Of a stretch of DNA of 64,000 nucleotides, positions 26,768-60,144 are shown in pieces. The notes under the pieces were generated by a model. It ran no database searches and had not been told where the DNA came from. It saw only the letters and a program-made list of their open reading frames with translations. The DNA comes from Amycolatopsis alba DSM 44262 (lineage in GTDB: Bacteria > Actinomycetota > Actinomycetes > Mycobacteriales > Pseudonocardiaceae): contig NZ_KB913032.1 in NCBI RefSeq assembly GCF_000384215.1, forward strand, positions 1,947,021 to 2,011,020, in the 5' to 3' direction. How positions within the stretch are numbered: the first letter of the stretch is position 1; every line of letters starts with the position of its first letter. A program made the translations under genes and the position numbers.

Positions 26768-26792
26768 TTCTCAGGAAATTCTTCTCAGGAAA
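26768..26792. promoter_or_regulatory. Tandem direct repeat upstream of htrA-like gene
   Basis: TTCTCAGGAAA occurs twice, 26768-26778 and 26782-26792, separated by 3 nt and ending 52 bases before the start at 26845. The arrangement looks like a binding site for a response-regulator dimer. From memory, the MprA boxes near mycobacterial pepD/htrA are also two direct repeats with a 3-nt gap; the match needs checking. Confidence 0.4.
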
Positions 26793-57076: not shown

Positions 57077-58007
57077 AGGTCCAGGACATCCCCCGGATCC
57101 CTGGCCGCACCGCCGACGTGAACGTGATCGCCGGGGAGAGCGTCGAGAGCGGCACGTCGGTGACGTCTCGCTCCGGGCCGGAAGCGTGGTCCAGCCGATA
57201 GGAATGACAGCGCTCCGGCATCGCCTCCGGGGCGAAGTGGATCTCCAGGAGGTGCTCCGGCATCGAGTGGCGGAACCGGCGGTCGTAGCGGTCGTCGGGA
57301 ACACCGTCGGTGTACTCGAATTCGTATTCGAAGATCGCGGTCTCCCCTGGGGCGAGCAGCCTGTCCGACACCAGTTCGCTGACGATGAGCGCCTGATCGG
57401 GGAGCACCTCGGTGCGGCCGGGCACGCAGTAGCGGGTCGCCGACAGCCTCGGCGGGCTTCCCGGCGCGCAGCCGCGCAGGACCACGACCCTGGTCTGGAC
57501 CGGTTCGTCGGTGGCACGGACGACCTCGCGCACCCGCTGCCGGGTCAGCGCCCGGTCGGTCCCGATGTGCAGTGATTCGTGCAGGCTCAGCAACATGAGG
57601 GACGGTTCATCCGAAGACTCGAACGAATGCAGTACGGAAAGCACCGGCTCTCGCGGATCCCACAGCCGGTCCCAGCCGACCAGGCGACGGAACGCGGGGA
57701 GGTCGTCCTCCGGCCGGTGAAGCAGATCGAGCAACGATTTCGCGGGGAGACCGAGCAGTTCCTCCAGCAAGGCGACCGCCCGCAGCGACTCGGGCCGCTC
57801 GGGCCGGGTCCTCCCTGTCCGCCAATAACTCAGCGTCGTCGTACTGATAGACACGCCCGCTCTGGCGAGCCGCTCCTTCACCCTGCCCAGGCCCAGGCCG
57901 CTGTGGTCGATGGCCCGCGACAACGCCTTGCTGAACGGACCGGTGGCGAGCACGCGCGCCAGCTCCCCCTCGGCGCGGGCCCCTGGGGTGACGGAGAACA
58001 GCGACAT
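57057..58007 (-). CDS. HTH (XRE/Cro-like) transcriptional regulator, unknown family
   Basis: A 316-residue protein with an N-terminal HTH-like region (about 15-75; 'FSKALSRAIDHSGLGLGRVKERLARAGVSISTTTLSYWRTGR', trimmed: 'VSISTTTLSYWRTGRTRPER' is a typical recognition helix of XRE proteins) and a 230-residue C-terminal domain of unknown function with no match I can name. No signal or membrane segment. The ATG at 58007 is preferred; the frame opens further upstream (to 58094) over the operator element. Being divergent from two secreted proteases that share its upstream element, it is a candidate regulator of both. Confidence 0.7.
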   Translation of the reverse strand: MSLFSVTPGARAEGELARVLATGPFSKALSRAIDHSGLGLGRVKERLARAGVSISTTTLSYWRTGRTRPERPESLRAVALLEELLGLPAKSLLDLLHRPEDDLPAFRRLVGWDRLWDPREPVLSVLHSFESSDEPSLMLLSLHESLHIGTDRALTRQRVREVVRATDEPVQTRVVVLRGCAPGSPPRLSATRYCVPGRTEVLPDQALIVSELVSDRLLAPGETAIFEYEFEYTDGVPDDRYDRRFRHSMPEHLLEIHFAPEAMPERCHSYRLDHASGPERDVTDVPLSTLSPAITFTSAVRPGIRGMSWTWPAEPG

Positions 58008-58452
58008 CGGCTTCTCGACCTCCGCGGTGATCTTGGACTTCCTTTCGAGGGATGTGCAATCCGCAGAAAGTACTGTCCTTTTCCGTTGACGCACATAAGT
58101 CCCGGATACGGGGCATTCGATGATGACCGGCTGACAATTCCGGACAATTCGGAGAAACCATTACCGCGACACGCTTCCGGCCGTTCACGATCCCGGTGAG
58201 TCCGTGAACGTTCCTGGGTTTCGGCGGCGTCGACCGCAGTCCTGACCGGAAGCAGGAGGCAGTCGCCGTTCCGTGTACCTGCCTATGGCCGGAACGATCC
58301 CCGACTTTCGTCTCCCTACCTAGGAAGGTTTTCCGCGTCTCCCGTTGCCGGAAATCTTTGCTCACCGGCATCGAGCACCTCTGCCGGATTCCCGCATCAC
58401 CCTCGCTCAGCAACGACCAGCAGGCGGCTCGGCCGCCCGATTGTGAGCTAAC
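58008..58452. other. Long intergenic region with the protease element
   Basis: 445 bases without a gene. It contains the conserved element at 58057-58090 close to the regulator start, then about 360 bases before the protease gene. The rest is AT-richer than coding DNA and includes a CCTAGG at 58322-58327, and no open frame with a ribosome site was found. A long 5' leader for the protease mRNA or a small RNA is possible but unproven. Confidence 0.5.
58057..58090 (+). promoter_or_regulatory. Conserved 34-nt protease element, copy 1
   Basis: CAATCC, then the palindrome-like core GAAAGTACTGTCCTTTT (58066-58082), then CCGTTGAC ending at 58090. It matches copy 2 at 59253 in 29 of 34 positions without gaps. 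The TTGAC could be a -35, and the core an operator. It lies 50 bases from the regulator's start (-) and 363 bases before the protease start (+). Confidence 0.6.
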
Positions 58453-59172
58453 ATGCGAAAACTGGCTTCAGTCGCTCTCGGGATCCTGGCGGCGGCACTC
58501 GCGGTGTCCACGCCCGGAATCGCGAACGCGCAGACGGACTCGGGTGTCCAGCCCTCGATCATCGGGGGCGGCTCCGCCACGGAGACCTACAGCTTCATGG
58601 TCTCGCTCAACAACGGCTGTGGCGGCAGCCTCGTCGCACCCCAGTGGATCGTGACGGCCAACCACTGCGGCAGCGCGTCGCAGGGCCGGATCGGCTCGAT
58701 CAACAAGAACTCCGGCGGCGAGGTCGGCAGGATCGACCGCCGGGTCACCAAACCCGGCACGGACCTCACGCTCATGCACCTGTCCACGGCCGCCCGCTCC
58801 ACCCCGGTCCCGATGGCCACGAGCAACCCGGCGCCGAACACCACCGCGCGGCTCCTCGGCTGGGGCTGCACCAGCTGGCCGAGCTGCAGCACGCCGACCA
58901 CGCTGCGCCAGATCGACCTCCGGGTGCTGGCCAGCAGCTCCTGCCGCGCCGGCGGTGGCGGCGCCGGTGACGTCTGCATCTCCGGCGACCGCACGCATTC
59001 CGCCTGTCACGGCGACTCCGGCGGACCGGCGGTCGTCGGCACCACCGGACGCTGGACCCTGGTCGGGGAGACGCACGGCCCCGGCGACAACGGGGGCGAA
59101 TGCGCCACCTCCACCCTCTACACCGGCATCGCCCAGCACCTGAGCTGGATCAAGCAGCAGACCGGTCTCTGA
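58453..59172 (+). CDS. Secreted trypsin-like serine protease (S1), protease 1
   Basis: A 239-residue secreted protease. Signal peptide of about 26 residues (ending ANA), short pro-region, activation site before Ile36 ('IIGGG'). Triad: His71 ('VTANHCGS', Asn in place of the common Ala), Asp104 ('GTDLTLMHL') and Ser189 ('CHGDSGGPAV'). Eight or so cysteines would form disulfides. Substrate-pocket residue 189-equivalent cannot be assigned with confidence, so trypsin-like specificity is only suggested. A strong terminator follows. Confidence 0.9.
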   Translation: MRKLASVALGILAAALAVSTPGIANAQTDSGVQPSIIGGGSATETYSFMVSLNNGCGGSLVAPQWIVTANHCGSASQGRIGSINKNSGGEVGRIDRRVTKPGTDLTLMHLSTAARSTPVPMATSNPAPNTTARLLGWGCTSWPSCSTPTTLRQIDLRVLASSSCRAGGGGAGDVCISGDRTHSACHGDSGGPAVVGTTGRWTLVGETHGPGDNGGECATSTLYTGIAQHLSWIKQQTGL

Positions 59173-59186
59173 GTACCGAACAACGG

Positions 59187-59225
59187 AAAACGGCACGCCT
59201 CGATCACCGGGGCGTGCCGTTTTTC
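59187..59225 (+). terminator. Rho-independent terminator after protease 1
   Basis: AAAACGGCACGCC (59187-59199) pairs with GGCGTGCCGTTTT (59211-59223), perfect 13 bp, followed by a T. The A/T flanks give a U-run in the RNA. Confidence 0.85.
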
Positions 59226-59252
59226 GTCTATTTTGGACAATCGCGCGCCGCG

Positions 59253-59286
59253 CAATCCTCCGAAAGAACTGTTCTTTCCCGTTGAC
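59253..59286 (+). promoter_or_regulatory. Conserved 34-nt protease element, copy 2
   Basis: CAATCC, then the perfect palindrome GAAAGAACTGTTCTTTC (59262-59278), then CCGTTGAC ending at 59286. Spacing of every part equals copy 1. It is 91 bases before the protease 2 start. Confidence 0.65.
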
Positions 59287-59376
59287 CGGTTCGGGTCTTT
59301 TCGCGGATTTCCTGGGACACCTCGTCCGAATACGTTTGAAGCGTCCCCCTCCCCTGCGTTTTCCCGAGGAGTCCCC

Positions 59377-60144
59377 ATGCGTGAAAACACCGGCAGCGTC
59401 GCCCGTGCGATCGCTCTTCTCGCCGGCACCTGTGCCGCGTTCGCGACCTTGGCCGCGGCACCCGCGGCGGCGAGCACCCCGACCGCCCCGGTCTCGCCCG
59501 GTGCCGCGCCGTCGATCATCGGCGGCAGCACCGCGCAGAACCCCGGCTACATCACCCGGTTCAACGGCCACGCCAACGGTTACACGTTCTTCTGCACCAG
59601 CACGCTGATCAGCTCGCGCTGGGTGCTCACCGCCAAGCACTGCCTGTACGACAACAACGGGCAGCGTCTGAAGGACATCGACCTCTACATCGGTTCCAAC
59701 AGCGCTTCCGGTGGCGTGCACGCCAAGGCTTCGGCGACCTACCTGTACTCGGGCGGCGACCTCGCCCTGATCAAACTGAACGCCGACGGTGGAAGCACCT
59801 TCGCGCGGCTCGCGAGCAGCTCTTCCGACGCTCAGGAAGGCGACTCCGCCCGCGTGTACGGCTGGGGCGCGACCCAGGCCGACCACGAAGGCGACCACCA
59901 GTCGAAGGTGCTCAAGCAGGCGACGGTCCGCATCTCCGACACGAACGCCAGGGACAACTACGGCGGTCCGGCGATCGACGCCGACACCCCGAACGGCGCG
60001 GTCGCGGGCGGGGACTCCGGCGGCCCGATGATCGACGACGGCGTCCAGGTCGGCGTGTGCTCGACCAGCGACCGGTCCAGCACCACCAGCTATGGCAGCG
60101 TCGCCGCGGGCCGTGACTGGATCCGCCAGACCAGCGGGGTCTGA
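59377..60144 (+). CDS. Secreted trypsin-like serine protease (S1), protease 2
   Basis: A 255-residue secreted protease. Signal peptide of about 32 residues (ending AAA), pro-region, activation before Ile47 ('IIGGS'). Triad: His88 ('TAKHCLY'), Asp128 ('GGDLALIKL') and Ser214 ('AGGDSGGPMID'). Only three to four cysteines remain, and the Cys normally beside the active Ser is absent. GAGGA precedes the ATG at 59377. Paralogue of protease 1 in function and regulation, but low identity. Terminator after the stop. Confidence 0.9.
   Translation: MRENTGSVARAIALLAGTCAAFATLAAAPAAASTPTAPVSPGAAPSIIGGSTAQNPGYITRFNGHANGYTFFCTSTLISSRWVLTAKHCLYDNNGQRLKDIDLYIGSNSASGGVHAKASATYLYSGGDLALIKLNADGGSTFARLASSSSDAQEGDSARVYGWGATQADHEGDHQSKVLKQATVRISDTNARDNYGGPAIDADTPNGAVAGGDSGGPMIDDGVQVGVCSTSDRSSTTSYGSVAAGRDWIRQTSGV

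Follow-up and report, generated by a model that had tools for sequence, protein, structure and literature searches.

A candidate one-component control unit for a secreted trypsin-like protease in Amycolatopsis alba

Regulators tied to secreted protease genes have been described in Bacillus and Streptococcus; NprR of Bacillus senses through a TPR domain, and in Streptococcus ropB and speB are neighbouring genes. NprR is described as a cytoplasmic one-component regulator that activates a secreted protease gene in the NprR-NprA-NprX system, NprX being re-imported to bind NprR (PMC3325205). RopB, of the Rgg family, is described as an N-terminal DNA-binding domain joined to a C-terminal peptide-binding domain, with residues 56-280 forming a TPR domain and with operators in the promoter of the secreted protease SpeB (PMC6565748). 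Expanded XRE regulators are also reported from Streptomyces, where they form XRE-DUF397 pairs with a small DUF397 partner protein (PMC10364602). Here, we analyzed a stretch of 64,000 nucleotides from the Amycolatopsis alba DSM 44262 genome (hereafter the window), which contains a helix-turn-helix (HTH) regulator gene, two secreted trypsin-like protease genes (protease 1 and protease 2) and two copies of a 34-nt element (Table 1). With moderate confidence, we read this locus as a one-component control unit for one of the proteases, protease 2.

The locus resembles NprR-NprA-NprX (RNPP/RRNPP) in having a one-component regulator tied to a secreted protease gene, and RopB-SpeB in combining an N-terminal DNA-binding domain and a C-terminal domain with a secreted protease target. 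The sensors differ, since NprR and RopB carry TPR domains whereas the C-terminal domain of the window regulator is predicted to be all-beta, with a fold like domain I of M1 aminopeptidases. C-terminal TPR repeats, the mark of the RNPP/RRNPP regulators, were looked for in the window regulator and not found, its domain being all-beta in two structure models. The regulator may work like NprR and RopB but, judging from the models, is not a member of their family. With the XRE-DUF397 pairs it may share the setting of expanded XRE regulators in actinomycetes, but DUF397 was not among the 25 most frequent neighbour families of the window regulator family.

The first-pass annotation of the window had reported two 34-nt elements agreeing at 29 positions, and our own comparison re-derived both at the same coordinates, with a gapless alignment and only scattered agreement in the flanks. 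Its gene positions were also correct, as was its call of two secreted proteases, each of which has a PF00089 trypsin domain. A 17-nt dyad is perfect in element 2 and imperfect in element 1. Searching the window with a 16-nt core and up to 3 mismatches gave 6 strand-wise matches against 0.76 expected, a number reached in none of 100 shuffles; these were the two real sites and a weak site at 26789, each counted on both strands. In the whole genome, a single contig of 9,811,274 bp, the search for a 25-nt core with three degenerate positions and up to 3 mismatches gave exactly two places, elements 1 and 2, and the reversed control pattern gave no match at the same tolerance.

A sequence model of the element, made from 23 rows, was then run on 80 genomes of the genus. 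It gave 26 strong matches in 20 genomes (E ≤ 4.3e-5), of which 3 lie outside the model rows and the other 23 match by construction; after a gap, the next match stood at E 0.0285 (17.8 bits). The informative part of the scan is that no other strong match, away from the regulator locus, was found in the 80 genomes, under filters that are stricter for many genomes and may lose weak matches. The element-bearing set of 20 is made up of every genome whose regulator reaches 63% identity (19 genomes) and of G021, where it is 52% identical. Because all 26 strong matches are at the regulator locus, the comparison supports the view that the element belongs with the regulator; a widespread motif without relation to the regulator, which the first-pass annotation had named as speaking against its reading, was looked for in the same genomes and not found. 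In genomes whose regulator is 49-52% identical, seven weak matches (E 0.18-0.20) fall between the regulator and protease-2 genes, a place that is suggestive only, as chance matches elsewhere score alike. An element-like match (23/34) before protease 2 of Kutzneria viridogrisea (L097) is also suggestively placed and was not counted because matches of 22-23/34 occur at unrelated places of other loci.

The dyad had been described as a palindrome within the element. It is present, but as a conserved core it was rejected: over 23 orthologous elements its pairs, from the outside to the centre, are kept in 3, 23, 5, 13, 19, 7, 16, and 20 of 23, the perfect form is confined to the protease-2 elements of the window's clade, and the flanks are conserved. 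Positions A3, C5, C6, G10-A12, G14, G19, T20, T25, C27, and G29-G32 are invariant, and TTGAC or TTGAT is kept in 22 of the 23. Since the dyad pairs are so unevenly kept, the recognised sequence is probably asymmetric, with CCGTTGA as its firmest part. Of the 13 genomes with a regulator of 63-67% identity (hereafter the 63-67% group), 10 have a second conserved dyad-like sequence, CCGACGAACGTCGG, on the stretch from the regulator to the single element; it is present in L018-L024 and L028-L030, truncated in L025 and absent from L026 and L027.

Protease 2, too, goes with the regulator. Among the 80 genomes, regulator relatives gave 38 matches in 29 genomes (E ≤ 1e-60) and protease-2 relatives 29 matches in 28 (E ≤ 1e-70). 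All 29 protease-2 copies lie within 1.5 kb of a regulator match, 23 directly beside it (<300 nt) and 6 about 1.4 kb off with protease 1 between, and none was found at this threshold in the 51 regulator-less genomes. These counts support protease 2 as the linked target of the regulator, and with it that part of the regulon first proposed. Nine regulators of 52-54% identity have no protease 2 beside them; eight of these genomes hold a second copy that does, but G008 does not. At the loci of these and other such 52-54% paralogues (L031-L039, L085-L089, L115), the two listed gene by gene (L086, L087) show a small S4/Hsp15-like RNA-binding gene after the paralogue. Both window proteases have trypsin-like S1 features (TANHC/DLTL/GDSGGP in protease 1 and TAKHC/DLAL/GDSGGP in protease 2 for the H, D, and S motifs) and a signal peptide as judged by eye. 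Their NCBIfam matches to FusH and MarP were weak, far below the cut-offs, and were rejected.

Promoter geometry suggests how the element might act. In 19 of 19 aligned upstream regions of protease 2 (the window and 18 genomes), TAC[GT]TT stands 43 or 44 nt past the element, with a TTACC- or TTTCC-like sequence 17 nt before it, whereas the distance from the element to the start codon varies from 84 to 99 nt. With TAC[GT]TT as the -10, the element would end at about -56 and be centred at about -73 of the protease 2 promoter. Class-I activators bind near -73. The -35-like CCGTTGAC end pointed out in the first-pass annotation does exist in the sequence, but its TTGAC is disfavoured as the -35 of protease 2 because the conserved -10 is found 43-44 nt past the element; with a conserved -35/-10 pair further downstream, this candidate was rejected, and element 2 is probably not the -35 of protease 2. 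No TAC[GT]TT was seen 43-44 nt past element 1. On the opposite strand, the six two-element genomes have an invariant CAAGAT as predicted -10 and TTGC.C as predicted -35 17-18 nt away, overlapping the first bases of element 1, and no -10 of the regulator was assignable in the 63-67% group. The position of element 1 over the predicted -35 in all six makes autoregulation, also part of the regulon first proposed, plausible.

Table 1. Features of the regulator-protease locus (window positions; promoter features are predictions)
Feature	Position	Strand	Basis or remark
Regulator, 316 aa	57057-58007	-	HTH helices 8-97 and all-beta C-terminal domain 137-310, predicted fold of M1 aminopeptidase domain I
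Predicted -10 of regulator, CAAGAT	58030-58035	-	Invariant in 6 two-element genomes
Predicted -35 of regulator, TTGCAC	58054-58059	-	Overlaps 5' end of element 1; 18-nt spacer to -10
Element 1	58057-58090	+	Proposed operator for autoregulation; 29/34 identity to element 2, and elements at orthologous loci of 19 other genomes
Protease 1 promoter-like block, GTTCCG ... CGGAACGATCC.CGACTTTCGTCT	58268-58327	+	Shared by the 6 two-element genomes and by 4 protease-1 copies elsewhere, near which no element was found
Protease 1, secreted trypsin-like serine protease	58453-59172	+	PF00089 1.6e-27; H, D, S catalytic motifs visible
Terminator-like hairpin, then T-rich sequence	59183-59227	+	Between protease 1 and protease 2; inverted repeat, 20-nt arms, 90% complementary; putative function
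Element 2	59253-59286	+	Proposed upstream activating site of protease 2; fixed -10 spacing in 19/19
Predicted -35 of protease 2, TTTCCT	59308-59313	+	The 63-67% group has TTACC
Predicted -10 of protease 2, TACGTT	59331-59336	+	Conserved spacing
Protease 2, secreted trypsin-like serine protease, linked target	59377-60144	+	PF00089 3.1e-24

Protease 1 behaved differently, and the two-protease regulon of the first-pass annotation was not supported. Its relatives (E ≤ 1e-70) numbered 22 in 21 of the 80 genomes, with 8 at the regulator locus and 14 elsewhere, and two genomes with close copies, 92% identical in G019 and 87% in G051, gave no regulator match at E ≤ 1e-60. The distance from element 1 to protease 1 is 362 nt. 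The promoter-like block, GTTCCG ... CGGAACGATCC.CGACTTTCGTCT, varies by a base or two among the six two-element genomes, and CGGAACGATCCGCGACTTTCGTCT also stands before protease 1 at each of the 4 loci fetched from the 14 others; in those 4 upstream stretches no element was found, the best element-like match being 19-22/34. Because protease 1 has its own conserved block, found also without regulator or element, it is probably outside the regulon, and it was rejected as a dedicated target. The block contains a GTTCCG and CGGAAC inverted repeat (58268-58295) that recurs at other protease-1 loci and may be the site of another regulator. Between element 1 and protease 1, the one place searched, no small signal-peptide open reading frame (ORF; ATG-started, 8-61 residues) common to all six two-element genomes was seen.

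The regulator ORF extends to a GTG at 58094, the ATG at 58007 being preferred, and its closest named relatives are in A. azurea and A. oliviviridis (88%) and A. thailandensis (86%). The window protein has no Pfam or NCBIfam match, and its family has no sequence relative in the PDB at E ≤ 0.1. HTH_31 matches 24 of 71 family members (best 2e-5), the window protein itself being unmatched, and some relatives were named XRE by their sources. The first-pass annotation had recognised no family in the C-terminal domain, which agrees with the Pfam result, but the predicted fold is recognisable. In the AlphaFold2 model (predicted local distance difference test score 90.5), the domain matches the fold of M1 aminopeptidase domain I (PF17900), as found in LTA4H, ERAP1, and the Deinococcus radiodurans M1 enzyme, among others; it is all-beta in both structure models, which share alignment rows. 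Sequence profiles gave no such homology: PF17900 had no match among the 71 members at E ≤ 0.01, and the hhalign probability between the domain and Peptidase_M1_N was 0.3%. Unlike these enzymes, the regulator has an HTH in front and no zinc catalytic domain, as the polypeptide stops at residue 316, just past the domain. Two cysteines of the domain, residues 194 and 267 in the window regulator, are nearly invariant (69 and 67 of 71), a possible disulfide or metal pair.

We infer that the XRE-like regulator binds the 34-nt element. In what would be the older layout, seen in 14 genomes (G021 and the 13 of the 63-67% group), the regulator and protease 2 are divergently transcribed from either side of one element, which would probably serve both. 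Its position at about -73 of the protease-2 promoter would suit activation from upstream, in a class-I-like manner, rather than repression, and it is also near the region where the regulator gene starts. In the 6 genomes that form the window's clade, protease 1 stands between the two genes, together with a promoter-like block of its own and a hairpin resembling a terminator, and the element is found twice, presumably through a later doubling. The jobs may then have been split, element 1 over the predicted regulator -35 acting in autorepression and element 2 serving protease 2. The C-terminal domain is the likely signal sensor; the signal, the most conjectural part of this scheme, would preferably be a peptide or a peptide N-terminus.

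A different arrangement, in which the regulator represses protease 2 by blocking RNA polymerase at the element until a signal relieves it, seems rather unlikely. XRE regulators are often repressors, and TTGAC/TTGAT is conserved in nearly all elements, but the conserved -35 and -10 of protease 2 stand some 20 and 44 nt past the element, where direct occlusion of protease 2 is unlikely and repression would call for looping or an upstream promoter. We give somewhat less credence still to one regulator controlling itself and both proteases, with each element an operator at a -35. The presence of both proteases at the locus in the six two-element genomes speaks for it, as do G041 and G069, where protease 1 follows the protease 2 stop codon by 3 and 95 nt behind a single element and may share the protease 2 transcript; this arrangement weighs against a one-protease unit and is the best remaining argument for joint control. 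However, most protease-1 copies lie elsewhere, those of G019 and G051 in genomes without the regulator, the gene keeps its own promoter-like block, and element 1, 362 nt before it, is followed by no -10 at the conserved distance.

Least probable to us is that another factor binds the element and the regulator is a mere genomic neighbour. In its favour, the nine 52-54% paralogues without protease 2 are also without a strong element. Nevertheless, strong elements are present in all 19 genomes with a regulator of at least 63% identity and in one with 52%, and in no regulator-less genome.

We also examined the neighbours of the regulator family, which has 10 members in the A. alba genome. Beside them are the window's two trypsins, subtilisins (L067, L075), a trypsin (L073), an alpha-lytic-prodomain protein (L069), a papain-like C70 peptidase one gene away (L071), and secreted-looking phosphatase-like proteins (L070, L068), with no peptidase or secreted-looking neighbour recognised at L072 and L074. 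Four of the 10 have a trypsin or S8 match no more than 2.5 kb away; leaving out the window, the count is 3 of 9 against 0.23 expected (P ~0.0009), based on 57 of 58 such matches, the fragment 381-512 being left out. Across the taxonomic family, members (E ≤ 1e-20) were found in 22 of 25 genomes. We fetched 72 loci from 20 other genomes (L116-L187) and analyzed 68, close rows sharing a locus; own-genome rows and rows at G097:C2, G097:C6, and G042:C9 were left out, and L160, L181, L183, and L184 were dropped as no regulator gene was called, although L160 and L181 do hold peptidase genes.

A peptidase-class match was an immediate neighbour at 31 of the 68 loci (one via an S53-like assignment). 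Classes S8, S1A, S1E, M28, or C70, with "M28" and "S1E" partly gathered through a shared P-domain, accounted for 31 of 131 adjacent genes versus 10 of 378 genes 3-7 places off (Fisher P 3e-12, the loci being related and such values not independent tests). Signal peptides, judged by a simple hydrophobicity rule, were assigned to 53/131 adjacent genes versus 30/131, 29/127, 21/105, 22/79, and 7/48 at 2-6 places. Pfam counts, which rest on the 25 most frequent families so that small ones are lower bounds, gave at least 18 S8, 5 C70, 3 M23, 2 M28, 2 trypsin, and 2 pro-kumamolisin matches among the 131 adjacent genes; a random 131 of the 184 genes 4-5 places off gave at least 2 trypsin matches, and S8 was not among the 25 families. 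After grouping at 50% identity, window included, 13 of 31 groups were such that half or more of the members had a peptidase neighbour. At the named-genome loci, a peptidase neighbour was found in 29 of 40. Protease 2 accounts for 16 of these (one of them in K. viridogrisea), and 11 Amycolatopsis loci (L103-L113) have a trypsin next to a relative that is HTH-only; the remaining two are a subtilisin at L099 of Janibacter sp. Soil728 and a papain-family peptidase at L101 of Fodinicola feengrottensis. None was recognised at the other 11 (L085-L089, L095, L096, L100, L102, L114, L115), where not all neighbours were Pfam-scanned. L146, L148, and L180 have two or three consecutive subtilisin-like genes close to the family member.

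These associations raise the tentative idea, which we consider possible but hold well below the reading of the locus itself, that this actinobacterial family couples an HTH to an M1-like substrate-reading domain that senses, inside the cell, peptides released by the adjacent secreted peptidase, so that each of many unrelated peptidases would have its own product-feedback switch. Two findings weigh against the association with peptidases: 37 of 69 members, window included, have no peptidase neighbour, and convergent pairs occur (10 of the survey's immediate neighbours), so that a gene next door need not share a promoter with the regulator. Separately, class II (D, K, N) tRNA synthetases made up at least 5 of 65 adjacent genes in the survey and adenosylhomocysteinase at least 4 of the other 66, pointing to some members being tied to housekeeping genes rather than peptidases. 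Titles and abstract starts of open-licence PubMed Central literature gave no paper on the regulator family or its protease neighbours, and none on an M1-like transcription factor of eukaryotes.

To our knowledge, the separate control of each of the many secreted peptidases of actinomycetes is little understood. The locus combines a protease-linked one-component regulator, whose putative sensor domain is predicted to have the M1 domain-I fold, with a duplicated proposed operator. The locus offers a compact pair of one regulator and one protease with one defined operator, and its natural operator duplication may separate autoregulation from target control. It also leads to a regulator family that has a C-terminal domain without a Pfam family and with a predicted peptidase-like fold. 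The family is enriched next to several unrelated kinds of secreted peptidase (subtilisin, trypsin, papain-like, and others), a neighbourhood pattern that suggests a little-studied bacterial control of extracellular digestion.
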